A stretch of 64,000 nucleotides of DNA from assembly GCF_017573505.1 (NCBI RefSeq), contig NZ_JAGEOJ010000002.1:558001-622000 (forward strand), written 5' to 3'. Made by a program: the position numbers and the translations under genes. This stretch comes from Actinomadura barringtoniae (GTDB lineage: Bacteria > Actinomycetota > Actinomycetes > Streptosporangiales > Streptosporangiaceae). The notes under the pieces were generated by a model that was not told the DNA's origin, did not search any database, and worked only from the letters and a program-made list of their open reading frames with translations. Shown piece by piece: positions 22,161 to 60,546 of this stretch (within the stretch, counting starts at the first letter, position 1; each line of letters opens with the position of its first letter).

Positions 22161-23396
22161 TCACCTGAGCAGCACGTCCGCCATCGTCGCGGCCGTCTTG
22201 CGGAGATCGTCCTCGCCGTAGCCGCGGCGGGTCACCTCCTGGGTGCCGATGCGCAGGCCGCGGTCCGGCTCGCCCGGCTCCTGCCAGGGCAGGCCGATCG
22301 CGCTGAGGTAGATCCCGGCCTCGGCCAGCCGCGCCATCGCCGCGCGCCCGTCGCCGACGTCCACGGCGACGTGGTGGGAGTCGGTGAAGCCGCGATCGGC
22401 GCCCGCGACCGTGAAGCCCTCCTCGGCGAGGGCGGCGGCCAGCAGGCGGGCGTTGGCGATGCAGGTGTCGGCGTACGCGCCGCCGCCCGCCATGATCTCG
22501 GCGGCGGTGACGGCCAGCGGCGCCAGGCGGCCCGCGTCGTAGTTGGCGGTGAGGCCCGGGAAGACCGCGGTGGACAGCCGTTCGGCCAGCCCCTCGTCGT
22601 CGGTGGCGATCACGCCGCCGGGCGGGCCGCCGAACGACTTGTAGGTCGAGAAGGTGAGGATCTGCGCCCCCTCGGCCAGCGGCTTCTGGAAGCGCCCGGC
22701 GGCGACCAGCCCGGCCATGTGCGACGCGTCGTACAGCAGCGTCGCCCCGGCCGCCGCGACGGCCTCGGCGATCGCGCCGACGCGGTGCGGGAACAGCAGC
22801 AGGCTCGCGCCGATCACCACCAGCCGCGGCCGCTCCCGGTCGAGGAAGCCCGGCAGGGCGTCCAGATCGACGTCGTAGGCGCCGGAGTCGTACGGCAGGT
22901 CCACCACGCGCAGCCCGCGCACGCCGGGAGCGCCGACCGCGTGGTGGCTGGTGTGGCCGCCGGCCCGTTCGGGCAGCACGGCGATCGTGTCCCCGGGCTC
23001 GGTCACCGCCGTGTAGACGGCGAGGTTGGCCATGGTCGCGCTGTGGCTGCGCACCTCGGCGAACCGCGCGCCGAGCAGCCGCGCGACGATCGTCGGGGCG
23101 AGCACCTCGAGGGTGTCCAGATGATCGAGCCCGGCCTGGTACTTCTCCCCCGGCCAGCCCATGCTCGGGCGCCCGCTCACGAGGGCCTCCGAGACCGCCT
23201 GCGCGGCCGGGCTCATCACGTTCGTGCCCGCGTAGAGCACGATCCCCTCGCGGTCGAACGACCTGGCATGATCATCGAGCGCCCGCCGCACGGTTTCGGA
23301 CACGCCCTCGGGCGAGAGGTCGGTCAGCTCCGCGGCGACCTCCGCGATCCGGGCACGAGCCACCGGCGACGCCCATGGCGCCAGTTCCTGGGTCAT
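22161..23396 (-). CDS. SHMT-like PLP-dependent enzyme (glycine hydroxymethyltransferase family)
   Basis: A 411-residue fold-type I PLP enzyme. The lysine that binds PLP is in FSTYKSFGGPPGGVI, the upstream Asp/His pair is in LLYDASHMAGLV, and the N-terminal region (LYAGTNVMSP, GWPGEKYQAG) aligns with serine hydroxymethyltransferase. It is shorter in conserved folate-contacting segments than housekeeping GlyA, and the STYKS motif differs from the usual THK, so it may act on another amino acid. It is divergent from the TetR gene; the 162-bp spacer holds the KstR2-type box and a second dyad. Confidence 0.82.
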   Translation of the reverse strand: MTQELAPWASPVARARIAEVAAELTDLSPEGVSETVRRALDDHARSFDREGIVLYAGTNVMSPAAQAVSEALVSGRPSMGWPGEKYQAGLDHLDTLEVLAPTIVARLLGARFAEVRSHSATMANLAVYTAVTEPGDTIAVLPERAGGHTSHHAVGAPGVRGLRVVDLPYDSGAYDVDLDALPGFLDRERPRLVVIGASLLLFPHRVGAIAEAVAAAGATLLYDASHMAGLVAAGRFQKPLAEGAQILTFSTYKSFGGPPGGVIATDDEGLAERLSTAVFPGLTANYDAGRLAPLAVTAAEIMAGGGAYADTCIANARLLAAALAEEGFTVAGADRGFTDSHHVAVDVGDGRAAMARLAEAGIYLSAIGLPWQEPGEPDRGLRIGTQEVTRRGYGEDDLRKTAATMADVLLR

Positions 23397-23475: not shown

Positions 23476-23489
23476 AGCAAGCGCTTGCT
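23476..23489. promoter_or_regulatory. KstR2-type operator, perfect match (autoregulatory)
   Basis: AGCAAGCGCTTGCT matches all 10 fixed positions of AnCAAGnnCTTGnT and is a perfect 14-bp palindrome. It lies 70 bp ahead of the TetR start and 80 bp ahead of the divergent SHMT-like start. It is the best copy in the window, placed at the regulator's own gene. Confidence 0.8.
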
Positions 23490-23523
23490 ACAACACGTAA
23501 CCTGATGTCAACGGGCCAACTTG

Positions 23524-23537
23524 AGCAAGCGGTTGGG
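23524..23537. promoter_or_regulatory. Secondary KstR2-type half-degenerate operator
   Basis: AGCAAGCGGTTGGG has 8 of 10 fixed positions. It is 48 bp from the centre of the perfect box, close to 4.5 helical turns, and 22 bp ahead of the start codon. Confidence 0.4.
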
Positions 23538-23558
23538 TGGAGACGGCATAATGAGAGG

Positions 23559-24224
23559 GTGACGACCACGAGCACTAATTCCGGACGGCCCAAAGCCAAC
23601 GAGGGCGGCGGCGGCACGCGCCGCCGGGGCAAGGGCTCACCCGCCCTGGCCTCGGAGCGGCGCGAACACCTGGTCAAGCTCGCGGCCGAACTCTTCGCCG
23701 AGAAGGGCTTCCAGGCCACGACGGTGCGCAACATCGCCGAAGAGGCCGGGATCCTGTCGGGCAGCCTGTACCACCACTTCGACTCCAAGGAGTCGATCGT
23801 CGACGAGATCCTCTCGGGGTTCTTCACCGAGATCATGTCGGCGTACCAGGGCGTCATCGACCAGGGCATGAGCCCCCGCGACACCATCGCGGGACTGGTC
23901 CGCCTCGCCTTCGGCACCCTGGAGCCGCACCGCGCCGCGATCACGGTGATGCAGAACGACTGGAACTACCTCAAGGGCATGGACCGGTTCGCCTACCTGA
24001 CCAAGTCCGAGGACGAGGTCGAGAAGATGTGGGTCGACACCATCAAGGCCGGCCAGAAGGACGGCTCGTTCCGCGAGGACATCGACCCCAAGCTCACCTA
24101 CCGGATGATTCGCGACACCGTCTGGGTGGCGGTCCGCTGGTTCAAGCCGGGCGGCCGGCTGAACTCCAAGGGCCTGGCCGAGCACTACCTCAAGGTCATG
24201 TTCGACGGCATCAACACGCACTGA
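23559..24224 (+). CDS. kstR2: TetR-family repressor, KstR2-like
   Basis: A 221-residue TetR regulator. The DNA-binding helices read FQATTVRNIAEEAGILSGSLYHHFDSKESIVDEIL. This closely tracks mycobacterial KstR2, and the C-terminal landmarks MWVD and YRMIRDTVWVAVRWFKPGG also match. KstR2 represses the steroid ring C/D catabolic genes and is released by a CoA thioester (HIP-CoA). The GTG at 23559 starts a Thr/Gly-rich N-tail of about 30 residues; an ATG at 23505 would lie between the two operators and is less likely. The perfect box upstream indicates autoregulation. Orthology is inferred from recalled sequence, not computed. Confidence 0.8.
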   Translation: MTTTSTNSGRPKANEGGGGTRRRGKGSPALASERREHLVKLAAELFAEKGFQATTVRNIAEEAGILSGSLYHHFDSKESIVDEILSGFFTEIMSAYQGVIDQGMSPRDTIAGLVRLAFGTLEPHRAAITVMQNDWNYLKGMDRFAYLTKSEDEVEKMWVDTIKAGQKDGSFREDIDPKLTYRMIRDTVWVAVRWFKPGGRLNSKGLAEHYLKVMFDGINTH

Positions 24225-24252: not shown

Positions 24253-26628
24253 TCACCGGTCGGCGGGCCGCCGGATGAACGCGGCGAGGACGGCGGCGGC
24301 CACGGCCACGGCCGCCGCGAGCAGCAGCGGTGTGCGCAGCATGGCCTCGTAGTCGGGCCGGTATCCCCGCGCCGCCGAGGGCGGGGCGATCAGGTCGCCG
24401 TCTCCGCGGAAGGCCATGAAGACGCTGACCAGGCCCGTTCCGAGCAGCGCGATCTGTTCCTGCAACCCGGAGCCGAACCCGGCCAGGCCTTCGGGGACGT
24501 CGCCAAGGATCGCCATCGCGACCGAGACGGCGAGCGCTCCCCAGGCGAGGCCGTAGAGGAACAGCCAGGCGGCGATGACGAGGTAGGGCGAGCCGCCGTT
24601 CTGGCCGAACGCCAGCGCCGCCGTGGCGATCGCCACCAGCGCCGTCGCCGCCGTCATCGGCCAGCGCGGGCCGAGCCGCCAGCACAGCAGCCCCGTGACC
24701 GGCGCGCTCACCAATGCCCCGATCAGCACGGGCGACAGCCGCAGCCCCAGCAGGCTGCCCTGGCCGTACCCGCCGTAGAAGGTCCATTCGAAGACGGCCT
24801 GGTCGAGGACGCTGAGGGACGCGAACGCGGCGATCGCCGCCACCGCTGACAGGACCAGCCGCAGGGGCAGCAGGTGGGGCCGTACCGCCAGCGCCACCGT
24901 GACCAGGGCGACCAGCACGGCGGCGGCCGGGACCAGCCCGGCCAGGGTGCGCCAGTCGATCCAGCCGTAGCTGCCGCCGCACCACACACCGAAGATCACG
25001 CCCGCGCCGAAGAGGCTGAGGAGCACCGTTCCGGCAACGTCCGCGGCGCGCCCACGCCCCTCGCGGCGCGAGTCACGCGTACCGAACGCCCCGAGAACGG
25101 CCGCGAGCAGGACCAGCGGCACCGCCGCGAAGTACAGCACCCACCGCGCACCGAAGTCCCGGACCATGCGCGCCGTGACCGACGCGGCCACCTGGGGCAC
25201 GCCGAGAAAGGCTCCCCACACGCCCAGGGCGATGCCGAGGCGGCGTCCGGGGAACATGTCCTGGAGCAGCGCCAGGCTCGGCGCCAGGACCGCCGCCGCG
25301 CCGATCCCCATGAGCGCGCGCGGCAGCAGTTGAAGCCACGCTCCGGCGGCGTCCTGGAAGTCGAGGAAGAACCAGCCGCCCAGCATCAGGCTGATCGCGA
25401 AGACCCCGAGCCCGGCCAGGAACACCTTCTTGCGCCCGATCGAGTCGGCCAGCCGCCCGAACGGGACGACCGTCACGACCAGCGCCAGCGGGTAGGCGAG
25501 GCTGAACCACAGCTGGGTGTGCGCGTTGACCGGCATCGCGTTCAGGGTGAACGAGTTGCCGAGCCCGACCGCCAGCGCCGCGACCGTCACCGCGGCCAGC
25601 GTGAGAACGGCGTTGCCTCCGGCGATCCCCCGCGGCACGGCGGGCAGCGGGGGTCCGGGCGGCAGAAAAGGGGGCGGCCCCACCATCGGCGGCAACGTGG
25701 GCACCGCCTGTCCCGGCAAGGTCGGCGCCACTGGCGCCGCGCCCGGCGCCACCACGGGCGCGAACTTCCCGGTCGCCATGGACGCACCCTGCTCCAGCAT
25801 CGCCGCTGCCCCCGCAGGCGCCGCGCCCTGATGGTCGAGCAGATGCAGGAGCAACTGCGGCGCGCTGGGCCTGCGCCCCGGGTCCTTGCTCAGGCACGCG
25901 GCGACCAGCCCAGCCAGTTGCTGCGGCAACGCCGACAGATCCGGATCGGCATGAAGCACCCGGTGCATGACCGCGGGGATCGTGTCGTTGCCGAACGGGG
26001 AACGCCCGGTCGCCGCGTACAGCACGGTCGCGGCCCAGGCGAAGATGTCGGTGTGCGGCCCGACGACCGCGCCCGCGACCTGCTCGGGCGCCATGTAGGC
26101 CGGGGTTCCGACCACATGGCTGGTCATCGTCCCGGTCGCGTCCAGCGCCTTGGCGATCCCGAAATCGATCACCCTCGGACCGTCGGGCCCCATCAGGACG
26201 TTCGGCGGCTTGAAGTCGCGGTGCACGATCCCGGCCTCGTGAATGGCCGCCAGCGCGGTCGCGGTGCCGATCGCCAGCCGGTAGAGCTCCCCGCCCGTCC
26301 GCGGTCCCTCTTCCCGTACGAGCTCCTGCAGCGAACGCCCCGGGACGAACTCGCTGACGATGTACGGCTGATCCCCCTCGGAGTCCGCGTCGAGCACCTG
26401 CGCCGTGCAGAAACCGGCCACCCGTTCCGCCGCCTCGATCTCCCGCACGAACCGCGCCCGCGCCGAGGCGTCAGAAGTGAACTGCGCCCGCAGCAGCTTG
26501 ACCGCGACCCGTTCCCCTTCCGGCCCCCGCCCCTCGAAGACGACTCCCTGACCGCCCTCGCCAAGTCGCCCCGCGAGCTCGTACTCTCCCAGCCGTTCCG
26601 GATCACCCGGCCTGAGAGGTCCGGCCAT
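24253..26628 (-). CDS. Ser/Thr protein kinase fused to an MFS transporter
   Basis: A 791-residue fusion. Residues 15-265 are a Hanks-type kinase: glycine loop GEGGQGVVF, catalytic lysine VAVK (K44), HRDFKPPN (D138), DFG (D155) and APE at residues 180-182. It is an RD kinase and looks active. A Pro/Ala-rich linker (about 270-340) joins a major facilitator domain of some 12-14 segments with the loop motif GRLADSIGRKKV. PknB-like kinases usually end in one membrane helix and a sensor domain; here a drug/proton-antiporter-type transporter takes that place. The ATG at 26628 follows GGGGGAAC. An ATG 51 nt upstream is possible. Confidence 0.9.
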   Translation of the reverse strand: MAGPLRPGDPERLGEYELAGRLGEGGQGVVFEGRGPEGERVAVKLLRAQFTSDASARARFVREIEAAERVAGFCTAQVLDADSEGDQPYIVSEFVPGRSLQELVREEGPRTGGELYRLAIGTATALAAIHEAGIVHRDFKPPNVLMGPDGPRVIDFGIAKALDATGTMTSHVVGTPAYMAPEQVAGAVVGPHTDIFAWAATVLYAATGRSPFGNDTIPAVMHRVLHADPDLSALPQQLAGLVAACLSKDPGRRPSAPQLLLHLLDHQGAAPAGAAAMLEQGASMATGKFAPVVAPGAAPVAPTLPGQAVPTLPPMVGPPPFLPPGPPLPAVPRGIAGGNAVLTLAAVTVAALAVGLGNSFTLNAMPVNAHTQLWFSLAYPLALVVTVVPFGRLADSIGRKKVFLAGLGVFAISLMLGGWFFLDFQDAAGAWLQLLPRALMGIGAAAVLAPSLALLQDMFPGRRLGIALGVWGAFLGVPQVAASVTARMVRDFGARWVLYFAAVPLVLLAAVLGAFGTRDSRREGRGRAADVAGTVLLSLFGAGVIFGVWCGGSYGWIDWRTLAGLVPAAAVLVALVTVALAVRPHLLPLRLVLSAVAAIAAFASLSVLDQAVFEWTFYGGYGQGSLLGLRLSPVLIGALVSAPVTGLLCWRLGPRWPMTAATALVAIATAALAFGQNGGSPYLVIAAWLFLYGLAWGALAVSVAMAILGDVPEGLAGFGSGLQEQIALLGTGLVSVFMAFRGDGDLIAPPSAARGYRPDYEAMLRTPLLLAAAVAVAAAVLAAFIRRPADR

Positions 26629-26721
26629 CGTTCCCCCTGGTCCTTGGCCCCCCGCCGACAATGCGGACCATTGGACCACAATCCCGCACGATTGGTTCCC
26701 GTCCCGCGGGTATCAGCAAAC

Positions 26722-26755
26722 ACACCATGATCGTCCCTCAATGGAGAGATGGTGT
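26722..26755. repeat. Inverted repeat between the kinase fusion and a small gene
   Basis: ACACCAT (26722-26728) and ATGGTGT (26749-26755) with a 20-nt spacer. It lies in the divergent spacer, 94 bp from the kinase start. Confidence 0.35.
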
Positions 26756-26837
26756 TTTGTGTCACATATGAGTCTGAACTCGTGACGCTTGCGTCTCAGG
26801 GAACGCTGTTACGGATGAGGTCTACGGGGGAGGCGAG

Positions 26838-27071
26838 ATGTCGGCTCAACGCGGTGCCGCCGCAGGGCGGGAGGAACAGCCGCCTGTGGAGCTGCGCGCC
26901 GCCCTGATCCAGGGGCTGCAGGAGCAGTTCCCCGGCGTCCGGGTCTGGTTCGGCGAGGCCACCGGTTCCTGGTGGGCGCTGGTCCCCACCAACGCCGGCC
27001 CGCGCCTCCTCGAGGCGCCCACCCCCCAGCAACTCCGCGACGCCATCATGGCCACCCGCACCCGAACCTGA
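26838..27071 (+). CDS. Small protein of unknown function (77 aa)
   Basis: A 77-residue protein with a strong ribosome site (GGGGGAGG) before the ATG at 26838. The sequence has an amphipathic helix (LRAALIQGLQEQF), a strand VRVWFG, a SWWALV motif and a C-terminal helix PTPQQLRDAIMAT. I know no family name. It resembles small companions of actinomycete regulatory genes and shares its general plan with the protein at 7460-7756. It is divergent from the kinase-transporter fusion, so a shared promoter region is possible. Confidence 0.7.
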   Translation: MSAQRGAAAGREEQPPVELRAALIQGLQEQFPGVRVWFGEATGSWWALVPTNAGPRLLEAPTPQQLRDAIMATRTRT

Positions 27072-27196
27072 CCCCGCGCCGCACGCCTCACCAAAATGTG
27101 ACCCGTATCACTCCCCTGTCCTGACAACCGTTCATAGGGCTAGCGCGTCACGAACATGATCAAGCGGGCCTCGGGTTGCTATGGCAGGGGATCGAT

Positions 27197-27505
27197 GTGC
27201 GGGACAAGAGGAACACCCACGGATCCCGAGCGGTACGAGCCGGCGGCGAGGCGGCGGATGGGGCGCGGAAGGTCTCGGTGGTCGTCAACGGGTGGGGCGG
27301 GCATCTCACGCTGGAGCAGCACGCCGAACTGCTCGGGCAGCTGGTGACCGTCATCGGCCATTTGGGCGACGGTATTCGTGCGCAGGCGGGCTACCTCGGG
27401 CAGTACCCGCACGTGGTCGACGGGCTGCGCGAGGCGGCGGGCGGGTTGGACTCGGCGCGGGAGAGCCTCAAGAAGGTTCAGGGGCAGATCGAGGAGCTCG
27501 CCTAG
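27197..27505 (+). CDS. Small helical protein of unknown function (102 aa)
   Basis: A 102-residue protein. After a basic N-tail it reads KVSVVVNGWGGHLTLEQHAELLGQL and ends in a heptad-like helix GLDSARESLKKVQGQIEELA, which suggests a short coiled coil. The GTG at 27197 has AGGGG 6 nt upstream; a TTG at 27176 is less likely. It overlaps the convergent glycosyltransferase gene by 38 nt. I do not recognise the family, and no secretion signal is visible. Confidence 0.65.
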   Translation: MRDKRNTHGSRAVRAGGEAADGARKVSVVVNGWGGHLTLEQHAELLGQLVTVIGHLGDGIRAQAGYLGQYPHVVDGLREAAGGLDSARESLKKVQGQIEELA

Positions 27506-28424
27506 GCGCCAGGTGCCTTCGGGCGGCGAAGAAATCGCGGATCTCGCGTTCGCCGGTGTCCTGCCAGAAGCGGACGGAGTGGGTGACCAGGCGGCCCTCG
27601 TCGACGAGCTGTTCGGGTGAGGAGGGCAGGCCTCGCCAGCGCAGGGCCAGGGGGTCGTCGGGGCCGCCGAAGTCGGCGAGGTGGTAGCCGGCGGCGACGG
27701 TGAGCAGGGCGTAGATGTGGTCCTCGCCGGTCTTGGTGCCGACCAGTTCGGGGAGGTCGAGCCAGCCTCGGTCGTAGATCGCGCGCAGCGCCTCATGGGA
27801 GTAGACGCAGGCGCCGCCTAGGACGTGTTCGCCGGTGACGTAGCCGTTGGCGCGTGCTTGTTCGAGGAGGTCGCGCATGCGGCGGCGGAGCGCGGGGCGG
27901 CGGAGGCCGCGCAGGCCCGCTTCGGAATGAAGGGCTCGTCCGGCCTGGGTCCAGTCGCGCGATCCGCCGTCGGGGCCGTAGCGGTAGGAGCCGAGCAGGC
28001 CGAGGGCCGGGTCGTCGGTGAAGCGTTTCGCGGCGGCGGCCTCCAGGCCGGGGCCGAGCATCAGCGCGTCGGCGTCCAGTCGGAGGAGCAGGTCGAACTC
28101 GGCGTTCTCGAGGGCGTGGCGGAGACCTGCGGCGAGTTTTGCCCAGAGGCCGCCGTAGGTGCCGGGGGGTGTCGAGGGTGCGGGCAGGACGACGACCGGG
28201 GGGCCGAGCTCGCGGAGCCTTCTCATCTCGGGGACGCGGCCGCGGGTGTCGTCGATGACGACGATGAGCGCGGGGTCCTCGGAGTAGCAGAGCACGCTGG
28301 CCACGGTGTCGGGAGCGTCGTCGTCGGGCCCCGCGGGCAGCACGGCCGCCAGCCTTCGTCCACCCGTCACGGCGCCCACGTCGCAAAGGCAGGGGGCGTC
28401 ACGCGAGGCGACGCTATCAGCCAT
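27468..28424 (-). CDS. Glycosyltransferase (GT-A fold) family protein
   Basis: A 318-residue protein with a GT-A-type layout: VASVLCYSEDPALIVVIDDTRG in the nucleotide-binding half, then FDLLLRLDADALMLGPGLE carrying the metal-binding DxD. The acceptor half includes GEDHIYALLTVAAGYHLADFGGPDDP. No membrane segments or signal peptide are visible, so it is cytoplasmic. The ATG at 28424 is kept; a GTG at 28370 would remove a Cys-containing N-tail of uncertain value. It sits just outside the polysaccharide locus on the opposite strand, so a role there is only suggested. The 3' end overlaps the small convergent gene. Confidence 0.8.
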   Translation of the reverse strand: MADSVASRDAPCLCDVGAVTGGRRLAAVLPAGPDDDAPDTVASVLCYSEDPALIVVIDDTRGRVPEMRRLRELGPPVVVLPAPSTPPGTYGGLWAKLAAGLRHALENAEFDLLLRLDADALMLGPGLEAAAAKRFTDDPALGLLGSYRYGPDGGSRDWTQAGRALHSEAGLRGLRRPALRRRMRDLLEQARANGYVTGEHVLGGACVYSHEALRAIYDRGWLDLPELVGTKTGEDHIYALLTVAAGYHLADFGGPDDPLALRWRGLPSSPEQLVDEGRLVTHSVRFWQDTGEREIRDFFAARRHLAPRRAPRSAPEPS

Positions 28425-28588
28425 GACCGATGGGGTCGGGAGATCGTGACAGAACTAACCACAACGACAAATGAACCGCGACTTCTTGCGCATCCTTCAC
28501 ATAGATCCCACGGGTGGGCATGTCCAGACTCGCTATGATCCATCGCTGAACATCACAGGAGAGTCACGCCCCCCACAGAAAGGCCGTC

Positions 28589-29500
28589 ATGACGAACCCG
28601 GTTGGCCCCTCCGGCAAGGGGCGCCGTCGGATCTGGATCGCCGCCGCCTCCGTGGGCGGGATCGTGGTCGCCACGACCGCGGTGGGCGCCGTCCAGCTGA
28701 ACGGGAAGGCCGAGCCGTCCGCCGCCGGAAGCAAGGCGGTCGCGCCGGCGGCCGGCAACGCGCCGACCGCCGAGGCGGCCGGGATCGCTCTCCCGCGCGT
28801 CAAGTGGAAGGTCAGCTGGCACGACGAGTTCCGCGGCCGCGGCAAGCCGTCGAAGTACTGGCGGCCGGTGACGGGCAACGGCACCAACGGCTGGTCTCAC
28901 AAGGCGCTCCACTACTACCGGGCGGGCAACGCCGCACAGGACGGCAAGGGCCGGCTCCTCATCACCGCCGCCAAGACCGGGCCGAAGGACAAGCTCCGGT
29001 GCTGGAACGGCAGGTGCAAGTACACCTCGTCGCGCATCCAGACCAGCGGCACGTTCAAGCAGGCGTACGGCCGCTTCGCGATCCGCGCCAAGCTCCCCAC
29101 CGGCAAGGGCGTCTGGCCGGCGTTCTGGATGCAGCGGGCCGCCAAGCCGTACGGCGAGATCGACGTCGTCGAGACGATCGGCAGCAAGCCGAACCTCGTC
29201 CAGGGGTACGCGCACCAGACGCGGCGGGTCGGCGGCGGCACCAAGCTCATGCCGCGCTCGCTGGCCGCCGGCTATCACACCTACGGCGTCGACTGGACCC
29301 CGTACCGGGTCGTCTGGTGGGTGGACGGTCACCCGTACGCGCAGCTCAAGCGCTACAAGGGCTGGGTCTTCAACAGCCCCTTCTACCTCATCCTCAACGT
29401 CCAGGTCGGCGGCCAGTGGCCGGGGACCCCCACGCGCGCCACGCGCTTCCCGGCCCGCATGGCGGTCGACTGGGTGCGCGTCTATAAGGCGACCAAGTAA
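28589..29500 (+). CDS. Secreted GH16 family glycoside hydrolase (first copy)
   Basis: A 303-residue exported GH16 enzyme. A signal-anchor-like segment (IWIAAASVGGIVVATTAVGAV) follows a basic tail. The catalytic motif GEIDVVETIG supplies nucleophile E190, D192 and acid/base E195. The beta-jelly-roll landmarks WHDEFRG, GVWPAFWM and WWVDGHPY are present. GH16 enzymes cleave beta-1,3/1,4-glucans and galactans. It opens the polysaccharide locus and is followed by a strong hairpin, so it is a separate transcription unit. The ATG at 28589 follows AAAGG. It pairs with a second GH16 at the other end of the locus. Confidence 0.92.
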   Translation: MTNPVGPSGKGRRRIWIAAASVGGIVVATTAVGAVQLNGKAEPSAAGSKAVAPAAGNAPTAEAAGIALPRVKWKVSWHDEFRGRGKPSKYWRPVTGNGTNGWSHKALHYYRAGNAAQDGKGRLLITAAKTGPKDKLRCWNGRCKYTSSRIQTSGTFKQAYGRFAIRAKLPTGKGVWPAFWMQRAAKPYGEIDVVETIGSKPNLVQGYAHQTRRVGGGTKLMPRSLAAGYHTYGVDWTPYRVVWWVDGHPYAQLKRYKGWVFNSPFYLILNVQVGGQWPGTPTRATRFPARMAVDWVRVYKATK

Positions 29501-29582
29501 GGCTCTCTAACGAGAGTCTTCTCACCACAACTGAGATCTGCGTCACCGGATCGGCGCGCTCCAAAATGAGCGGCCGATCCGG
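29501..29582 (+). terminator. Two hairpins after the GH16 gene
   Basis: The first has a 7-bp stem (29501-29507/29512-29518, one G-T pair) with loop TAAC, followed by TTCTC. The second has arms CCGGATCGGC (29546-29555) and GCCGATCCGG (29573-29582) plus an inner GCTC/GAGC stem around CAAAAT. Together they should end the GH16 transcript before the long operon. Confidence 0.65.
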
Positions 29583-29899
29583 CGCTCAGGCTTTCTAAGT
29601 TACGAGCGGATTACCAGGGTTACGGCGAGCTGACAGGAAATTGTCCACGGCGCCATGACCACCCGTGGACAGGCTTAACGGCAGCCCGATCCGGCACTCA
29701 CAACAGCCCAGGTCGCAGCGCGATCTCGAACGCCAAGTCGTCGCCAAATCACAAAATGTGACCTAGTCCCACTCATATAGGTCGGTTGTACCGAACTGTC
29801 CGAGCGTGATAGAAATCCACCTCGGTCGACCCGGAAATAAACATCTCAGAACATGTTTCGCGCTTGTTTCGCGATGTGAAGAAAGGGAGCGATTACCAG
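29583..29899 (+). other. Intergenic leader of the polysaccharide operon (about 320 bp)
   Basis: No gene found. It is AT-richer than its surroundings and must hold the promoter of the ten-gene operon. AAAGGGAGCGATTACCAG precedes the ATG at 29900. No consensus -35/-10 pair or riboswitch fold stood out. Confidence 0.5.
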
Positions 29900-30529
29900 A
29901 TGGTGTCCTTCGCAAGGACACGGCAACACGACCCGGACGACCCATTGGGCGAAGCGGCTACCGTCCACCGGCCGGGACCTCCCGGCCTCCCCGGACTACC
30001 CGCGGGACTCGTCTCCCGCCGCCGCGCTCCCTACATCGCCCTCTTGGCCGTCGTGTTGATCCTGGGCGGGTTCGGCCAGACCCCGCCCGGCCGCCACCTC
30101 TTGCGAACCGCGGGCATCCTCGGCTCCCCCGCCTCCTACACAGAACTGGCCTTTGCGGCGCCGAAGTCGCTGCCGCGCGAGATCTCCCCCGGCTCCCCGC
30201 TCCCCCAGGTCTCCTTCATGATTCACAACTCGACGGACAGGGCCCGCGACTACCGCTGGTCCGTCACGCTCGCCCCCCGCCAAGAGACGGCCGGGCAACC
30301 GGCCGCTCCCGCCAAGCCCACCGCCCCCGCCAGGCCCGCTGCCCCCACCACTCTGACCACCGGGAACCTCAATCTGGCCGACGGCGGTTCCACGACCGTC
30401 ACGCCGCAGGCCGCCAAGGTCGCGTGCGTGTCCGGCCCGGTGGTCCTCACCGTCCGGCTCGAGGGCAGCGGCGAGACGCTGTCCTGGCAGGCCGACTGCA
30501 CCGCCGCCGACATCACCCAGCAAGGATGA
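29900..30529 (+). CDS. Single-pass membrane protein of the polysaccharide operon, unknown function
   Basis: A 209-residue protein. A cytoplasmic Pro/Gly-rich N-terminus is followed by one membrane segment (APYIALLAVVLILGGFG) and an extracytoplasmic domain (ASYTELAFAAPKSLPREISPGSPLPQVSFMIHNST) that looks like a small immunoglobulin-like beta sandwich, similar to the C-terminal part of DUF1616 proteins found in archaeal and actinobacterial polysaccharide loci. A Pro/Ala insert lies in the middle. The ATG at 29900 is chosen over a TTG at 29864. It is the first gene of the coupled operon, overlapping the next by 4 nt. Confidence 0.65.
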   Translation: MVSFARTRQHDPDDPLGEAATVHRPGPPGLPGLPAGLVSRRRAPYIALLAVVLILGGFGQTPPGRHLLRTAGILGSPASYTELAFAAPKSLPREISPGSPLPQVSFMIHNSTDRARDYRWSVTLAPRQETAGQPAAPAKPTAPARPAAPTTLTTGNLNLADGGSTTVTPQAAKVACVSGPVVLTVRLEGSGETLSWQADCTAADITQQG

Positions 30530-31773
30530 GCGCGCCCGGGAAGGCGTCCGCGCGCGCCGAGAAGCAGAACGCGAAGAGACCGAACGCGAGGCCGAACGCG
30601 AAGAGACAGGCCGCGTGGCCGCAGGGCGAACGGCCCGTGGTCGCACTGGTCACCGACGCCGTCCACCCGTACAACTTCGGCGGCCGCGAGATCCGCTACC
30701 ACGAGCTGTCGCGCCTGCTGTCGGCCACCGCCGACGTGCACATGTACACGATGCACTGGTGGGACGGGCCCAGGCGGCGCACCGACGGCCCGATCACCAT
30801 GCACGCCCTGACGCCCAAGCTCGCGCTCTACAAGGGGCGCCGACGATCCTTCAGGCAGGCGATCGTGTTCGCGCTCGCCTGCCTGGCGCTGCTGTGGCGC
30901 CGCTTCGACATCCTGAAGGTCGACCACATCCCGCAGTTCCAGCTCTTCACGTTGCGCCTGGTCGCGACCGTGCGGCGAAAACCGCTCATCGCCACCTGGC
31001 ACGAGGTCTGGGGAGCGGAGTACTGGAACGACTACCTGGGCCGTGGCGGCCGGCTCGCCTGGTGGGTGGAGCGCATGTCGATGCGCCTGCCCGACCACAT
31101 CATCGCGGCGTCGCCGCAGACCGCCGACCGCCTGTACGACCAGCTCGGCCCGGACGCCTCGATCATGGTGGCGCCGAACGGGATCGACCTGGAGGCGGCC
31201 CGCAACGCCGATCCGGCGGGTGACACCACCGACCTGGTGGTGGTCACCCGGCTGATGGTGCACAAGCGGATCGACATGCTGCTGGACGCCGTCGCCCTGC
31301 TGCACGCCGAGGGCCGCCGGATCACCTGCCGCGTCATCGGCACCGGTCCCGAACGCCTGGCCCTGCACGAGCAGGCCGAACGGCTGGGCCTGTCCGAGCA
31401 TGTGGACTTCCGGCACGACGTCGAGGAGCAGAAGGAGCTCTTCGCCCTCATCAAGGCGGGCCGGGTGTTCGTGCTGCCGTCCGAACGCGAGGGCTTCGGG
31501 ATCGCCATCCTGGAGTCGCTGGCGTGCGGCGTTCCGGTCGTGACCACCGCGGCCCCCGACAATCTGTCCCAGCATCTGGTCACCCGTTCGCAGCGCGGCC
31601 TGGTCTCCGAGCACACCCCGGCCGCGCTGGCGATGGCGATCGGCACGGCGCTGTCGGCGCAGGACGACCTGGACGGCGGGGACCCGTGGCTCGGCGACCC
31701 GTGGGTGGGCGACTACTCCTGGGACGCCATCGCCGCGCAGATCTCCGGAAAGTTCTGGCCCGAGGCGTCATGA
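30526..31773 (+). CDS. Glycosyltransferase family 4 (first GT4)
   Basis: A 415-residue GT-B enzyme. A Lys/Asn-rich N-tail (about 30 residues, AKRPNARPNAKRQ) precedes ALVTDAVHPYNFGGREIRYHELSRLL, the acceptor-side domain. The donor domain carries LVVVTRLMVHKRIDMLLDAVALL and the family EX7E motif in SEREGFGIAILESLACGVPV. It transfers a nucleotide-activated sugar to the growing polysaccharide or lipid-linked intermediate. The ATG at 30526 overlaps the previous stop by 4 nt and its own stop overlaps the next start by 4 nt. Confidence 0.9.
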   Translation: MSAPGKASARAEKQNAKRPNARPNAKRQAAWPQGERPVVALVTDAVHPYNFGGREIRYHELSRLLSATADVHMYTMHWWDGPRRRTDGPITMHALTPKLALYKGRRRSFRQAIVFALACLALLWRRFDILKVDHIPQFQLFTLRLVATVRRKPLIATWHEVWGAEYWNDYLGRGGRLAWWVERMSMRLPDHIIAASPQTADRLYDQLGPDASIMVAPNGIDLEAARNADPAGDTTDLVVVTRLMVHKRIDMLLDAVALLHAEGRRITCRVIGTGPERLALHEQAERLGLSEHVDFRHDVEEQKELFALIKAGRVFVLPSEREGFGIAILESLACGVPVVTTAAPDNLSQHLVTRSQRGLVSEHTPAALAMAIGTALSAQDDLDGGDPWLGDPWVGDYSWDAIAAQISGKFWPEAS

Positions 31774-32945
31774 GGATCCTGTTCGTCAGTCCGTACCCGC
31801 CCGCCAAGGACGGGATCGGAACCTACACGCACGTGCTCGGCGGCGCCCTGCGCGCGGCCGGGCACGACGTCGCCGTCGTCACCCCGCGGCCGCTGCCCGG
31901 CGCGCCGCCGGAGGTGATCGGCGCGCTCGGTCCCGGCGGCGCCACGCAGGCGCTGCGCGAGGCCGAGGCCTCGTTCGCGCCCGACGTCGTACACGTCCAG
32001 TTCGCCGTCCCCGCGTTCGGCTCCCGTACGCCGGCGATGGTGCGCTGGCTGGGCGAGCTGTCGCACGGGCGGCCGGACGGCCGCGCGGCGGTCGTCACGA
32101 CGATGCACGAGGTCACGCGCGACACCGCGCTGCTGCGCGGGGCCGGCGAGGCCCTGTACCGGCGGATCGCGGCGGGCAGCGACCACGTGATCGTGCACAC
32201 GGCGGCCGCGCAGGAGCTCGTCCCGGGCTCGCAGGTCGTCCCGCACTTCTCGTCCCCGCCGCCCGAGACCACCACGACCCCGGCCGAGCTGCGCGAACGC
32301 TTCGGGCTCGGCGAGTCCGAACGGCTGCTGCTGGCGTTCGGGTTCATCCACGTCGACAAGGGCCTGGACGACCTGGTCGCGGCGCTGGGGCTGCTGCGCC
32401 GCCGCGACGCCGGCCTGGCCGCGAACGTGCGCGTCGTCGTCGCCGGCACGGTCCGCGGCCGGACGGGTCCGTTCCGGCTCATGGAGCTGCGCGACCACGT
32501 TCACCTGCGGAAGGTGCTGCGCATGGCGCGCCGCGCCCGGCTGCTGGACCGGCTGGTGTTCACCGGATTCGTCCCGGACGGCGACATCGGCGCGTGGTTC
32601 GGCACGTCCGAGGCCGTCGTGCTGCCCTACCGCAAGGCCGAGCAGAGCGGGGTCGCCAACCTCGCGCGGGCGTTCGGCGTTCCGGTGCTGGCGACGACGG
32701 CGGGCGGGCTGGCCGAGCTCTTCGCCGACTCGCCCTGGACCGCGCCTCCGGCCAAGCCGAGCAGCCTGGCCGACCTTCTCCAGCGCTTCCTGACGACCAG
32801 TCCCCATGATCCACCCGCCCACCACGTACCGGAGCTCGGCGAGACCGTCGCCGCGACCGCCGAGGCGTACCGGACGCTCCTGAACGCCACCCGAGCCGAC
32901 ATCCAGGCGGACGCCGCTCAAGGGAGAGTGACCGATGGCCGCTAG
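31770..32945 (+). CDS. Glycosyltransferase family 4 (second GT4)
   Basis: A 391-residue GT-B enzyme. MRILFVSPYPPAKDGIGTYTHVLGGALRAAGHDV is the classical N-terminal glycine-rich loop. The donor side reads LLLAFGFIHVDKGLDDLVAAL, then LVFTGFVPDGDIGAWFGTSEAVVLPY and AEQSGVANLARAFGVPVLAT, the EX7E-like region in a variant form. It should add a hexose or deoxyhexose. It overlaps the downstream GT2 gene by 11 nt, the only overlap in the operon that is not 4 nt. Confidence 0.9.
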   Translation: MRILFVSPYPPAKDGIGTYTHVLGGALRAAGHDVAVVTPRPLPGAPPEVIGALGPGGATQALREAEASFAPDVVHVQFAVPAFGSRTPAMVRWLGELSHGRPDGRAAVVTTMHEVTRDTALLRGAGEALYRRIAAGSDHVIVHTAAAQELVPGSQVVPHFSSPPPETTTTPAELRERFGLGESERLLLAFGFIHVDKGLDDLVAALGLLRRRDAGLAANVRVVVAGTVRGRTGPFRLMELRDHVHLRKVLRMARRARLLDRLVFTGFVPDGDIGAWFGTSEAVVLPYRKAEQSGVANLARAFGVPVLATTAGGLAELFADSPWTAPPAKPSSLADLLQRFLTTSPHDPPAHHVPELGETVAATAEAYRTLLNATRADIQADAAQGRVTDGR

Positions 32946-33981
32946 CCTCACCGTCGTCATCTGCTCCCTGAACGGCGCGGACCGCATCGACAGGCCGCTG
33001 AACGCCCTCGACGCGCAGACCGCGCGCGGCGAGCTGGAGATCATCGTCGTGGACGACGGCTCGTCCGACGGCGTCGGCGACGTCGCCCGCGCACGCGGCC
33101 TCCCGGTCATCGCGCACGAGGCCAACCAGGGTCTGTCGGCGGCGCGCAACACCGGCATGCGGGCGGCGACGACGCCGCTGGTCGCGTTCATCGACGACGA
33201 CTGCGAGCCCACGCCCGACTGGGCCGAGCTGCTGATCGGCGCGTACGAGGACGGCGTCACGGGGGTGGGCGGCCCGGTCGTGCCCATCACCGGGACCGGC
33301 TTCATGTCCCGCTACGTCGAGCGCAACAACCGGCACGAGCCGCTGGAGCTGGAGCTCACCACGAGCCAGGCCCTCCCGTACCGGCTCTACCTCTACCTGC
33401 GCAACCAGTGGACGACGCCGCAGCCCAAGCCGCGGCGCGACGTCTACTCGTTCACCGGCGGCAACATGTCGTTCCGGCGCGAGGAACTGCTGGAGGTCGG
33501 CGGCTTCGACGAACGGTTCCGCTTCGGCTCGGAGGAGGAGGACCTCACCAGGCGCCTGCGCCGGGCCGGGCACGACCGCATGGTCTTCGTGCCGGAGGCG
33601 TGGATCACCCACCGCTTCGAGCCGACGCTGCGCAATGTGCTGCGCCGCAGCCTGCAGTACGGCCGCGGGAACGCGCTGCAGTACAGCAAGTGGCCCGGGG
33701 TCCGCCCGACGCTGTTCCCCTGGCCGGTCCTGACGTTCCTGCTGCTGGCGGCCTCGCTGCTGCTGTGGCCGCTGGTCGTGGTCGCCGTGCTGCTGCCGCT
33801 GTTGCTCTACCCGCGCGGCCTGAAGAACGCCACGCTGGGCGGCGCCCCCGAGGCGTTCGTCGACCCGTTCCTGCAGCTCACGCAGGAGGCGTACGAGAAC
33901 GTCGGCTTCGTGCGCGGCGCCCTGGCCTTCCGTGGCATGGAACGCGAACCCGAACCCGTTCGAGCTGGACATCCGGCGTGA
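32935..33981 (+). CDS. Glycosyltransferase family 2 (first GT2)
   Basis: A 348-residue GT2 enzyme. The nucleotide-binding motif LEIIVVDDGSSDG and the DxD-like FIDDDCEPTPDW are clear; GGNMSFRREELLEVGGFDERFRFGSEEEDL is the family acceptor loop with the conserved Glu/Asp. Two hydrophobic segments near residues 262-300 anchor it to the membrane. The ATG at 32935 follows AGGGAGAG. It is coupled to the DUF2206-like gene by a GTGA overlap. Confidence 0.9.
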   Translation: MAASLTVVICSLNGADRIDRPLNALDAQTARGELEIIVVDDGSSDGVGDVARARGLPVIAHEANQGLSAARNTGMRAATTPLVAFIDDDCEPTPDWAELLIGAYEDGVTGVGGPVVPITGTGFMSRYVERNNRHEPLELELTTSQALPYRLYLYLRNQWTTPQPKPRRDVYSFTGGNMSFRREELLEVGGFDERFRFGSEEEDLTRRLRRAGHDRMVFVPEAWITHRFEPTLRNVLRRSLQYGRGNALQYSKWPGVRPTLFPWPVLTFLLLAASLLLWPLVVVAVLLPLLLYPRGLKNATLGGAPEAFVDPFLQLTQEAYENVGFVRGALAFRGMEREPEPVRAGHPA

Positions 33982-36314
33982 TCGATGTCCGGCCACCCTT
34001 GAGCGATCAGTTCCCAGAGGAGGACCTGCCCCCCTCGCCTCGCCGGATCCGCGGCACCATCGAATGGCTGATCTTCCGGCGCGTCGTCACCTACGGCGGC
34101 TCGCTGGCGCTGATGGCGGCCCTCGCGATGCTCCAGGACCTGTGGATCGCGCAGCTGGTCCTGATCCCGATGCTGTTCACGGTGCCTGGACTGCTCCTGC
34201 TGAACGCGATGCGCGTGCCCGGCACGTCGGTGGCGAACTTCCCGCTGTACGTGCCGGCCTGCTCGCTCGTCGTGCTGATGACCTCGGGCCTGGCGGTCAA
34301 CATCATCGGCGCGCAGGCCGGGATGGCGCATCCGCTGCGGCCCGCGCCGCTGCTCATCGGGCTCGAGGTGATCTGCCTCGTGCTCCTGCTGTTCGGCACG
34401 ACCGCGCCGCTCAGCACGGCGATCCCGCGTCCGGCGATCCCGTCGGCCGCGTGGCTGGCGCTGATGGGCCTGCTGCCGCTGATGGCCGCGGTGGGCGCGC
34501 TCCGCCTGAACCACGGCCAGGGCTCGGCGGTGGCGATCGGCGTCCTGGTCACCTGCGGCGTGGTGCTGATCCTGGCCGCCGTGCTGGCCGGACGGCTGGA
34601 CGTCACGCTCATCTCGCTGCTGCTCTTCGCGATCTCGCTGGCGATGATGTGGGCGTACTCGCTGCGCAGCGACCTGATGTACGGGTTCGACATCTCCACC
34701 GAGTACGCCATCGCGACCCAGACGATCCAGGACGGGGTGTGGCAGATGCACCCCCACAAGGACGCCTACGGCGCGATGCTGAGCATCACCGTGCTGCCCG
34801 CGCAGCTGCACGCCCTGACCGGCGTGGACGTGGCGCTGGTGCTCAAGCTCGCCTATCCGGCCGCGTTCGCGATGTTCGTGGTCGGCATCTTCAACATCGC
34901 CACGCGCTTCCTGCCGCGCCGGTGGGCCTTGCTGGCCGCCGCGTACGTGCTGGTCCAGGGCGGTGTGTCGCAGCAGCTCCCGGCGCTCACCCGCCAGGAG
35001 GTCGCGCTGCTGCTGTTCCTGGCGCTGTGCGCGGCGATGCTGGAGATCGAGATGCCGCGGCCGCAGCGCGTCGCGCTGGTGATCATGTTCGGCCCGGCGC
35101 TGGTGGTGTCGCACTACTCGTCCGCCTACTTCGCGATCATGATGCTGGTCGGCGCGATCGTGATGCAGGTCCTGCTGGCGATCCTGCGCCGTGCGACACC
35201 CGTGCGCTGGACGGTGGTCGCGGCGACGGTCGCGGCGACGATCAGCGCGGTGGCCTGGTACGGGCCGGTCACGCAGTCGGCGTCCAACCTCGGCCAGCTG
35301 CGCACCGCGCTGAGCTCGGACGGGCTGCAGCTGCTGCCGCACGGCCAGGGCAAGGGCATCATCGGCGCGTACCTGGCCGGCGGCGACGGCGCGACCATCT
35401 CGGCGGCCGAGTACGACAAGAAGGTCCGCGAGGAGTACGCGGCGCAGCGCAAGTACGTGGTGCCGTCCGAGGGCGCGGACGATCCGAGGTACGCGCTCAA
35501 GGACGCGCCGCTCACCAAGCCGACGCCGCGCCTCATCCCGATCGGCCAGCTCCTGGAGCTCGCCGTCCTGATCTTCGCCCAGCTCGGGAACCTGCTGGCC
35601 CTGGTCGCGGCGGCGGTCATGGCGTTCACCCGAAGATCCCCGGGACTGACGCGGCAGGTGGGCCTGCTCGCGCTGCCCGCCCTCGGCGCCCTGGTGCTCT
35701 TCCGGCTGTCGGGCACCCTGGCCAGCACCTACAACCAGGGGCGCGCCCAGATCCAGGCGCTGACGCTGGTGTCGGTCGCGCTGTTCTGGATGCTGCACAA
35801 GAGCTCGCCGCACCTGCGCAAGGTCGGGCTGCGGTTCTCCAAGGGGGTCCTGGACGGCCTGATGTGGACGGCCGTCGCGGGCGCCGTACTGGCGATCTTC
35901 CTGAAGACCAGCGGGCTGTCGGCGGTCGGCCTGAACGGGTCGCCCGGCACCAACCTGAAGGGCGGCGGCGAGGACACCGAGCGCTACTACATGTACCGCC
36001 CGGAGATCGCCTCGGCCGCGTGGCTGGCCGCCAACGTCGCGAACAACAAGGACTTCGTCTACTCCGACCGCTACGGGCAGACGCGCCTGTTCACCCAGAT
36101 GGGCGCGTGGCGGCCCGGGATGCTGACCGACCTGGCGCCACCGGTGATCAACAACTCGGCGTGGATCTACGCCACCCGGGTGAACGTCGTCCAGGGCCGG
36201 GCCCGGTCCTCGGTGACCGACGGCATGGCCACCTACGCCTTCCCCGCCGACTTCATCAAGGAGCACTACGACCTCGTGTACAGCAACGGCACATCCGAGG
36301 TGTTCCACAAATGA
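33978..36314 (+). CDS. Large polytopic membrane protein, DUF2206-like (candidate polymerase/glycosyltransferase)
   Basis: A 778-residue protein with about 14-16 hydrophobic segments and a periplasmic-type C-terminal domain. The segment YGFDISTEYAIATQTIQDG followed by YGAMLSITVLPAQLHALTGVDV matches the DUF2206 pattern of archaeal and actinobacterial polysaccharide loci. Its position between glycosyltransferases and the flippase is where a Wzy-type polymerase or a GT-C glycosyltransferase would be expected, and the acidic DIxxEY motif fits a GT-C active-site loop. The function is inferred. The start is the GTG at 33978, overlapping the previous stop. Confidence 0.75.
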   Translation: MIDVRPPLSDQFPEEDLPPSPRRIRGTIEWLIFRRVVTYGGSLALMAALAMLQDLWIAQLVLIPMLFTVPGLLLLNAMRVPGTSVANFPLYVPACSLVVLMTSGLAVNIIGAQAGMAHPLRPAPLLIGLEVICLVLLLFGTTAPLSTAIPRPAIPSAAWLALMGLLPLMAAVGALRLNHGQGSAVAIGVLVTCGVVLILAAVLAGRLDVTLISLLLFAISLAMMWAYSLRSDLMYGFDISTEYAIATQTIQDGVWQMHPHKDAYGAMLSITVLPAQLHALTGVDVALVLKLAYPAAFAMFVVGIFNIATRFLPRRWALLAAAYVLVQGGVSQQLPALTRQEVALLLFLALCAAMLEIEMPRPQRVALVIMFGPALVVSHYSSAYFAIMMLVGAIVMQVLLAILRRATPVRWTVVAATVAATISAVAWYGPVTQSASNLGQLRTALSSDGLQLLPHGQGKGIIGAYLAGGDGATISAAEYDKKVREEYAAQRKYVVPSEGADDPRYALKDAPLTKPTPRLIPIGQLLELAVLIFAQLGNLLALVAAAVMAFTRRSPGLTRQVGLLALPALGALVLFRLSGTLASTYNQGRAQIQALTLVSVALFWMLHKSSPHLRKVGLRFSKGVLDGLMWTAVAGAVLAIFLKTSGLSAVGLNGSPGTNLKGGGEDTERYYMYRPEIASAAWLAANVANNKDFVYSDRYGQTRLFTQMGAWRPGMLTDLAPPVINNSAWIYATRVNVVQGRARSSVTDGMATYAFPADFIKEHYDLVYSNGTSEVFHK

Positions 36315-37225
36315 TCTCCATGGTGGTCATCAGCAAGGACGAGCCCGAGCTGGACGCCACGCTGAGCGGCGTGGCCGCCGCGGCGGACGCCTACGGCGCG
36401 GCCGACGGTCACGGCGAGCCGTACGAGATCATCGTGGTGGACGCCTCCGACGGCCGGCTCGACCACATCGCCGCCGCCCACCCCGGGGTGCGCTGGATCG
36501 CGTTCGAGCGTCCGGCCGGGGTGCGGGTGTCGATCCCCCACCAGCGCAACGCGGGCGTGCGCGCCGCCAAGGGCGACATCGTGGTCTTCACCGACGCCGG
36601 CTGCCGTCCGCTGGACGGCTGGCTGGGCGAGCTGCTGGCGCCGATCCAGGTCGACGGCGAGGACATCGTCGCGGGCGTGGCCGTCGGCCCCGAGGGCGCG
36701 GACGGGCTGTACGACGCGGAGGCGCTGCGCCGGGCCGAGGCCGCCTACCTGGACGAGTGCCCGACCATCAACCTCGCGTTCCGCACCAAGGTGTGGGAGG
36801 CGATCGGCGGGTTCGACGAGGCCTTCGAGTACGGCTCGGACGTCGACTTCGCCTGGCGGGCCATCGACGCGGGCCACAAGATCCGCAGTGCTCCCGGCTC
36901 GGTCGTCACGCACCACTGGGGCGACCGGCGGCGGCAGTTCAAGCGTTCCTTCGCTTACGGCAAGGCGCGCGCCCGCCTGTACCGCAAGCACCGCTCGCGG
37001 CGCGGGCAGCTGTTGTCCACGGAGCCGATGGTCGTCGTCTACCCGGTCTTCCTGGCCGGGATCCCCGTCGTGCTGGTGGCGTCGGTGTTCGTTCCGTGGG
37101 TGCTGCTCTACCCGCTGCTGCTCGCGGTCCCGGCCTGGCGCAACCGGCGGATCGGCGCCGGGCGCGTGATCGTCGACCACCTCGCCTACGGGGCCGGAGT
37201 GCTGGCGGAGCTGCCGTCGCGATGA
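36311..37225 (+). CDS. Glycosyltransferase family 2 (second GT2)
   Basis: A 304-residue GT2 enzyme with YEIIVVDASDGRLDHIAA at the nucleotide-binding edge, VVFTDAGCRPLDGWLGEL in the metal-site region, where the usual DxD is DAG, and a short acceptor loop TINLAFRTKVWEAIGGFDEAFEYGSDVDFAWRA. Two C-terminal hydrophobic segments (VVYPVFLAGIPVVLVASVFVPWVLLYPLLLAV) suggest membrane association. It overlaps genes on both sides by 4 nt. The weakened DxD leaves activity somewhat uncertain, although many GT2 enzymes vary there. Confidence 0.88.
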   Translation: MISMVVISKDEPELDATLSGVAAAADAYGAADGHGEPYEIIVVDASDGRLDHIAAAHPGVRWIAFERPAGVRVSIPHQRNAGVRAAKGDIVVFTDAGCRPLDGWLGELLAPIQVDGEDIVAGVAVGPEGADGLYDAEALRRAEAAYLDECPTINLAFRTKVWEAIGGFDEAFEYGSDVDFAWRAIDAGHKIRSAPGSVVTHHWGDRRRQFKRSFAYGKARARLYRKHRSRRGQLLSTEPMVVVYPVFLAGIPVVLVASVFVPWVLLYPLLLAVPAWRNRRIGAGRVIVDHLAYGAGVLAELPSR

Positions 37226-49002: not shown

Positions 49003-49031
49003 AACCTAGCCGTAAAGTGCTATCTAGACAA
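49003..49031 (-). promoter_or_regulatory. Promoter of the Ltp2-like aldolase gene
   Basis: On the minus strand, -35 TTGTCT (49031-49026) and -10 TAGGTT (49008-49003) with 17-bp spacing. The -35 lies inside the KstR2-type box. The -10 is the same hexamer as at 62831-62836. Confidence 0.55.
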
Positions 49032-49040
49032 GCGCTTGCT
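49027..49040. promoter_or_regulatory. KstR2-type operator (Ltp2-like aldolase)
   Basis: GACAAGCGCTTGCT matches 9 of 10 fixed KstR2 positions (G for the first A). It covers the -35 element of the minus-strand promoter and lies 87 bp ahead of the NarL gene stop on its other side. Confidence 0.7.
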
Positions 49041-54312: not shown

Positions 54313-54326
54313 AGCGAGCGCTTGGT
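54313..54326. promoter_or_regulatory. KstR2-type operator (LLM/ligase operon)
   Basis: AGCGAGCGCTTGGT matches 9 of the 10 fixed KstR2 positions (G for A in the first half-site), 53 bp ahead of the LLM start. Confidence 0.65.
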
Positions 54327-60532: not shown

Positions 60533-60546
60533 ACCTAGCACTTGCT
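60533..60546. promoter_or_regulatory. KstR2-type operator overlapping the -10 (isochorismatase-fold/SDR operon)
   Basis: ACCTAGCACTTGCT has 9 of 10 fixed KstR2 positions. On the minus strand the -10 TAGGTC (60537-60532) lies within it, so binding would block the polymerase. The divergent endonuclease V gene begins 45 bp away. Confidence 0.6.

Follow-up and report, generated by a model that had tools for sequence, protein, structure and literature searches.

A KstR2-type repressor with a monooxygenase cluster in Actinomadura barringtoniae, and the apparent division of a steroid regulon between two repressors

KstR2 represses steroid-ring catabolism in bacteria. The mycobacterial KstR2 regulon holds about 15 HIP genes, according to the available parts of PMC3068626 and PMC5380842, and fadA6-kstR2-ipdF-fadE30 is given as its known gene order in the accessible text of PMC5380842. 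The M. tuberculosis probe for Rv3557c/Rv3558 that was gel-shifted contains AGCAAGCGCTTGGT (PMC3068626, in the part available). Larger predicted KstR2 regulons are already known. For instance, Nocardioides simplex has 29 operons with predicted KstR2 sites, about a third of which are induced by phytosterol, as the accessible sections of PMC7807495 have it. Literature on KstR2 in Actinomadura or in Nonomuraea was searched for and none was found; the same holds for KstR2 combined with regulon evolution, and for KstR2 combined with operator and Pseudonocardia. The present study concerns a stretch of 64,000 nucleotides of A. barringtoniae (the window), whose TetR regulator, here called KstR2-W, is judged from its sequence to be a KstR2-type protein, but not simply "the" KstR2 of its genome. 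The point of interest is what looks like one regulon split between two repressors with different boxes, together with an apparent reversal of this state in one species.

KstR2-W is encoded at 23559–24224 on the + strand (221 aa). The closest solved relatives are 2ibd (2.1e-57) and the M. tuberculosis KstR2 type represented by 4w97 and 4w1u (both named KstR2; about 8e-54), and the next one, 4mxm, follows at 9e-19. The match listing describes 2ibd only as a possible transcriptional regulator; we take it to be the KstR2 of R. jostii. The recognition helix of KstR2-W, GILSGSLYHHF, is identical in 2ibd and 4w97. Among the orthologs compared, which are the best 80 of 185 relatives of KstR2-W, this helix is present in 77 and GIQSGSLYHHF in three. 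Identities within the same best 80 of 185 are mostly 77–93% for named Actinomadura, 71% for A. terrae, and 63–71% for Nonomuraea and kin. The initial annotation held that the TetR protein resembles KstR2, and both the protein, by its solved relatives and helix, and its operators support the KstR2 type.

The annotation had also placed a perfect palindrome ahead of the regulator, and ANCAAGNNCTTGNT indeed matches exactly at 23476–23489. This primary self-operator, AGCAAGCGCTTGCT, stops 69 bases short of the start codon, so that the AnCAAGnnCTTGnT operator is present in the promoter of KstR2-W itself. Upstream of the orthologous genes, the self-operator matches the published KstR2 motif perfectly in 51 and with at most one mismatch in 65 of the best 80 of 185, and it is kept across Streptosporangiales. 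The commonest form in the Nonomuraea orthologs of this set (best 80 of 185) is AGCAAGCGCTTGGT, the sequence contained in the gel-shifted probe. A second sequence, AGCAAGCGGTTGGG at 23524–23537, had been listed as a weaker box. The site exists with two mismatches, and is better described as a conserved second element near the −35 of the KstR2-W gene, with 69 matches among the orthologous loci (best 80 of 185). Divergent from the regulator lies a gene for an SHMT-like PLP enzyme (22161–23396, − strand), whose membership in the regulon is uncertain.

With a scoring matrix built from the orthologs' self-operators alone and a threshold of 9, the window yields seven intergenic sites scoring 9.1–26.0, namely 587 (16.8), 757 (16.8), 23476 (26.0), 23524 (9.1), 49027 (16.9), 54313 (16.8) and 60533 (11.7). 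One further site of at least 9, at 59535 (9.1), is genic. In fifty first-order random windows, the threshold of 9 was reached by 0.5 sites per window on average and by no more than 2. The window boxes are confirmed as real; every coordinate of the earlier box list (587, 757, 23524, 49027, 54313 and 60533) was found, all of them intergenic and scoring 9.1–16.9. Each of 587, 757, 49027, 54313 and 60533 has one mismatch.

The operator at 587–600 stands before a thiolase/lipid-transfer-like gene (1–568, − strand; 386 aa, extending past the window to −592, with PF22691 in its C-terminal part). The same box precedes the same gene in Actinomadura sp. J1-007 (G027), and a variant does so in A. xylanilytica (G030). 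Since an in-frame ATG lies at 790, the box at 757–770 is upstream of a flavin reductase (790–1398, +; PF01613), which is likely a partner of luciferase-like monooxygenases (LLMs). The operator at 49027–49040 belongs to the gene of an Ltp2-like thiolase-fold protein (47795–48931, −), for which the best solved match is 6ok1_A, "lipid-transfer protein" (E 3.6e-64), presumably the Ltp2 of Thermomonospora; the best NCBIfam model, PRK07855 "lipid-transfer protein", gives 314.5 bits, short of the 469 set as its cut-off. AGCGAGCGCTTGGT at 54313–54326 is the operator of an operon with an LLM (54379–55452, +) and an AMP-forming acyl-CoA ligase (55479–56990, +). The weaker operator ACCTAGCACTTGCT at 60533–60546 occupies a divergent promoter, with an isochorismatase-fold hydrolase (59893–60516, −) and an SDR dehydrogenase (59156–59890, −) on one side and endonuclease V (60591–61268, +), perhaps no true target, on the other. 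At the corresponding position, G027 and G030 carry the variant ATCTAGCACTTGCT. A box in this isochorismatase/endonuclease V promoter is common to the window genome, G027, G030 and locus L114.

A box at 62822–62835 had been proposed ahead of a DUF35/VOC/ligase run. It scores 1.5 and is rejected as an operator. The run consists of a ChsH2-like DUF35 protein (62845–63228, +), a VOC/glyoxalase-fold protein (63225–63569, +) and an acyl-CoA ligase of 524 aa (63619–64000, +) that runs on outside the window. The idea of one regulon is supported for most of the named genes. The isochorismatase/endonuclease V box, though weak, persists in relatives. Within 24253–43695, no gene finds a reciprocal best match when compared with the syntenic regions of G027 and G030, and the roughly 19 kb after the regulator therefore looks inserted relative to these two genomes.

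The whole genome of 11.7 Mb was scanned as well. Exact ANCAAGNNCTTGNT occurs 10 times, which is not above the 10 of the reversed-motif control, and ANCAAGCGCTTGNT with at most one mismatch occurs 36 times against 30, not clearly enriched; G002, G006 and G021 have fewer sites than the control (15, 7 and 9 versus 23, 28 and 15). Because raw counts do not rise above the reversed motif, number alone is no evidence, and genome-wide counts were rejected as such. The box signal rests on clustering, intergenic placement and conservation. Nine of the 36 ANCAAGCGCTTGNT sites fall in C12:553111–660781, a cluster of about 108 kb that makes up 0.9% of the genome, and 9 of the 10 RNCAAGCGCTTGNY sites are intergenic by our gene calls. 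The regulon, described at first as dispersed, is mainly this cluster, which extends past either end of the window, and includes some sites farther off.

Several further boxes deserve mention. A perfect box at C15:47253 (L069:6253), far from the main cluster, is flanked by a PhyH-phosphotriesterase-P450-SDR operon and an LLM gene, and a box at C23:574114 (L071:6114) is upstream of an acetoacetate-decarboxylase-like/SDR/two-amidohydrolase operon. In four genomes a KstR2-W-type box occupies the divergent promoter of genes for a helicase of about 1,600 aa of the Lhr type and an alpha/beta-hydrolase (L073:5979, which is C12:452979; L225:10434; L227:8863; L229:9744); in three of the four, the domain checks covered at least one of the two genes. 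A helicase of this type is an odd target for a catabolic repressor, and boxed endonuclease V and Lhr genes make little metabolic sense.

The conservation of the boxes was examined in the loci of the best 80 of 185 relatives. Apart from the self-operators, 107 of 108 sites scoring at least 9 are intergenic, though about 87% of the sequence is coding; sixty column-permuted matrices on the same loci gave means of 2.8 intergenic (maximum 17) and 13.9 genic sites (maximum 80). Similarly, a comparison of three clusters found 41 sites intergenic and 3 genic, with permuted means of 1.0 and 4.0. G027 and G030 keep boxes at the same genes as the window genome. The shared boxed units are LLM-359 aa-CoA ligase; thiolase with flavin reductase; the regulator; the Ltp2-like gene; LLM-CoA ligase; isochorismatase/SDR with endonuclease V (weak); ACAD-like-ACAD-HyuA-HyuB-LLM with SDR (variants); ABC transporter with Zn-ADH (weak); and LLM with hydrolase-LLM-LLM. 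In the wider set (best 80 of 185), 16 loci, A. alba included, have such a box ahead of an Ltp2-like gene, and many loci keep a box at the Ltp2 position with a different gene behind it. A box precedes the LLM ortholog in 13 of the best 80 of 185 loci, 11 of them with the letters of AGCGAGCGCTTGGT. The LLM is found in 13 of 36 Actinomadura, all 13 of which have ipdC, and the module is patchy. The genomes are related, and such counts are not independent. LLMs, a flavin reductase, CoA ligases, thiolases and acyl-CoA dehydrogenases, taken as a set, suggest a CoA-dependent route that degrades an alicyclic acid. The 20-kb locus of G011, where KstR2-W is diverged, showed no boxes, and one is retained in G012.

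The initial annotation remarked that the canonical KstR2 targets are absent from the window. This is so because they sit on another contig, C74, in the company of a second KstR2-type regulator and behind an operator of another type. This regulator, KstR2-C (C74:73915–74517), is the next closest in the genome and is 45% identical to KstR2-W. It lies in the order thiolase-TetR-SDR-acyl-CoA dehydrogenase, which corresponds to fadA6-kstR2-ipdF-fadE30. About 30 kb away on C74, echA20-ipdABC were found as matches to the echA20-ipdA-ipdB-ipdC run of Nonomuraea and named by order and domains (enoyl-CoA hydratase, two CoA-transferase, nitronate-monooxygenase-type). The HIP promoters on C74 carry AACAAATGTTTGGT and ACCAAACAGTTGTT; KstR2-W operators were not found at the HIP genes (ipdABC, fadA6, fadE30) of the window genome, which have the other box type. 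In 20 of 20 echA20 promoters from genomes with KstR2-C the box is AACAAATGTTTGGT (21 Actinomadura promoters examined; 30 congeners hold KstR2-C).

The two types of box differ in their half-sites. Among 25 strict intergenic boxes in 25 C loci, two f20 genomes included, CAAG in both half-sites occurs in none, CAAA in one or both in every one, and CAAG in just one in four. At the W loci (best 80 of 185), self-operators included, both half-sites read CAAG in 55 of 58 such boxes. The recognition helix of KstR2-C is L(G/A)GSLYYHF, against LSGSLYHHF in KstR2-W. A third KstR2-type paralog, with the helix GILAGSIYHHF and CAAATGTTTG-type boxes, was seen at L207 and L208 (G024:C18 and G022:C17), and a further ipdC copy (63%) lies within a few kb of the third-paralog gene in G022 and G031.

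In other Streptosporangiales, KstR2-W itself adjoins HIP genes. This is the case in 24 of the best 80 of 185 loci, 23 with ipd genes and one, Sphaerisporangium, with fadA6 only; the others are from most Nonomuraea, Thermoactinospora, A. alba, A. sp. HBU206391 and two MAGs. Of the remaining loci in this set, four have other marker neighbours alone and 52 have none in the fetched flank, some of them cut by a contig end. The echA20 promoters at KstR2-W carry AGCAAGCGTTAGGT in 16 of 23, AGCAAGCGCTAGGA in three and no clear box in two, and two are cut. In A. alba the HIP operon, an Ltp2-like gene and an LLM operon, each with a W-type box, lie within 20 kb. The Nonomuraea loci led us to reject the notion that KstR2-W is just a paralog confined to Actinomadura that has taken on a new role; judged by gene context, KstR2-W would work like KstR2 in Nonomuraea.

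Where KstR2-C is present, no HIP genes were found at KstR2-W. Both regulators occur in 32 of 41 genomes; ipdC lies within 32 kb of KstR2-C in 28 and on another contig in four, and within 60 kb of KstR2-W in none of the 32. Seven of the 41 have KstR2-W without KstR2-C, with ipdC at KstR2-W in one, elsewhere in one (G003) and absent in five, and the two with neither regulator have no ipdC. Of 30 genomes chosen from the 80, three have KstR2-C and none of these has HIP genes at KstR2-W, and 27 are without it, 24 of them with HIP genes at KstR2-W. KstR2-W was found in 34 of the 36 Actinomadura congeners searched. It is at least 78% identical in 31 of 31 with ipdC and in none of the five without, where it has diverged (62–67%) in three and was not found in two.

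A. atramentaria (G003) departs from its congeners. It has a C-type HIP cluster with echA20-ipdABC, fadA6, ipdF and fadE30, and KstR2-C is missing between fadA6 and ipdF, where the predicted genes are 17 bases apart. The echA20 promoter carries AGCAAGCGCATGTT, with a W score of 18.2 versus 6.6 for the usual box, and the fadE30 promoter AGCAAACGCTTGGT, with 19.4 versus 5.3. KstR2-W of this species has lost its primary self-operator. It is likely that KstR2-W took the HIP promoters back here after the loss of KstR2-C, an apparent reversal seen in one genome.

In the regulator tree, KstR2-W forms a clade of its own (100/97), as do the mycobacterial group (99/96) and KstR2-C with f20 (99/97). The best tree joins W and C at 71/68, and trees with W or C joined to the mycobacterial group are not rejected (AU p 0.38 and 0.43); the bootstrap is unsettled, with a long-branch risk for the f19 rows. 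In the IpdC tree (33 rows), the copies group by regulator type and not by host (W 97/94; C 87/97, below star). The FadA6 tree is less clear, with the C-type copy of G094 beside W copies.

From the established sequences, positions, conservation and gene content we infer binding, repression, effector, direction of change and pathway as follows. KstR2-W quite probably represses itself and the catabolic cluster of about 108 kb until a steroid-derived acyl-CoA releases it, in a regulon split with KstR2-C. Through CAAGCGCTTG-type boxes it would repress its own gene and the cluster's operons, a dimer sitting on the palindrome next to every promoter until the pathway yields a CoA ester, probably HIP-CoA or a closely related compound, that would free the promoter. 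The past regulon of KstR2-W may have comprised the HIP genes (echA20-ipdABC, fadA6) and the monooxygenase/Ltp2/CoA-ligase module, an arrangement that A. alba partly retains. With KstR2-W on a non-HIP cluster and the HIP genes near KstR2-C with another box, one circuit appears split between two repressors; in Actinomadura the HIP genes would now be with KstR2-C and its CAAA half-site boxes, and KstR2-W would have kept the other module. A. atramentaria lacks KstR2-C, and there KstR2-W would have regained the HIP promoters. The broadest form of this reading is tentative, and we hold it with slightly less than even confidence: Streptosporangiales split an ancestral steroid regulon by changing the operator code (CAAG or CAAA half-sites), with a matching SLYHHF/SLYYHF change of helix, A. 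atramentaria lost KstR2-C and returned its HIP operators to the former type, and the W module is an undescribed steroid-type branch.

Alternatively, KstR2-W may have changed its effector, sensing the CoA ester of a non-steroid substrate of the monooxygenase module and having no steroid role in Actinomadura. The boxed genes, which are LLMs, thiolases, hydantoinase/carboxylase-like proteins, CoA ligases and an ABC transporter and not HIP enzymes, would agree with this, as would G059 and G180, of another genus, which keep KstR2-W and have no ipdC. Nevertheless, we regard it as unlikely, given that KstR2-W neighbours HIP genes in A. alba and in most Nonomuraea loci, that the HIP promoters of A. 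atramentaria carry W-type boxes, and that the C-terminal motif RDT.WVAVRWF of KstR2-W resembles solved KstR2, where KstR2-C has VAANWY. The location of HIP genes at KstR2-W and the way its conservation follows ipdC in Actinomadura favour a steroid-derived effector. The initial annotation had offered a rewired regulon or an effector other than HIP-CoA; the rewiring is supported, and the other effector is not favoured because of the Nonomuraea and A. alba loci.

It is less probable still that the two repressors cross-regulate, each binding both box types in one merged regulon with no partition. Both are of the KstR2 type with similar helices, the boxes share a CAA core, and the four C-locus boxes with a single CAAG half-site could be read in this way. 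However, boxes with two CAAG half-sites are confined to the W loci in the comparison above, the echA20 promoters are identical in all 20 examined with KstR2-C, and the boxes differ in the genome without it. That another TetR protein reads the boxes, the synteny of regulator and box being incidental, seems very improbable. The window genome does hold 120 TetR-like matches to KstR2-W at E ≤0.001, and one exact box adjoins another TetR gene (C15:76711), but the self-operator is kept ahead of the KstR2-W gene across Streptosporangiales, the helix is identical to that of KstR2, and M. tuberculosis KstR2 was gel-shifted on the same kind of sequence (PMC3068626, in the part available).

A split of the regulon between KstR2-W and KstR2-C would provide a natural rewiring series in which regulator, helix and operators are all readable, from HIP genes adjoining KstR2-W, as in most Nonomuraea and in A. 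alba, through partition (Actinomadura) to apparent reversal (A. atramentaria). The KstR2 motif, when employed as an annotation tool for steroid genes, would mark the wrong genes in Actinomadura. Candidate genes are also named here for a steroid-linked pathway.

Compared with known systems, KstR2-W shares family, recognition helix and the AnCAAGnnCTTGnT operator with KstR2 (Rv3557c / MSMEG_6009 / ro04598), but in the window genome it fronts the LLM/Ltp2/ligase cluster and not the HIP genes. KstR2-C and its f20 relatives are likewise KstR2-type, and KstR2-C has the fadA6-kstR2-ipdF-fadE30 order with HIP genes nearby; it differs from KstR2-W in overall identity, helix and CAAA half-sites. KstR is also a TetR protein and regulates steroid catabolism, yet KstR2-W reaches only 23.8 bits with the NCBIfam KstR model, below the cut-off of 280. 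The side-chain aldolase Ltp2/ChsH2 has its counterparts in 47795–48931, nearest to 6ok1_A, and in 62845–63228 with both ChsH2 domains, 14 kb away; the difference is that here the putative Ltp2-like gene stands behind a KstR2-type box.
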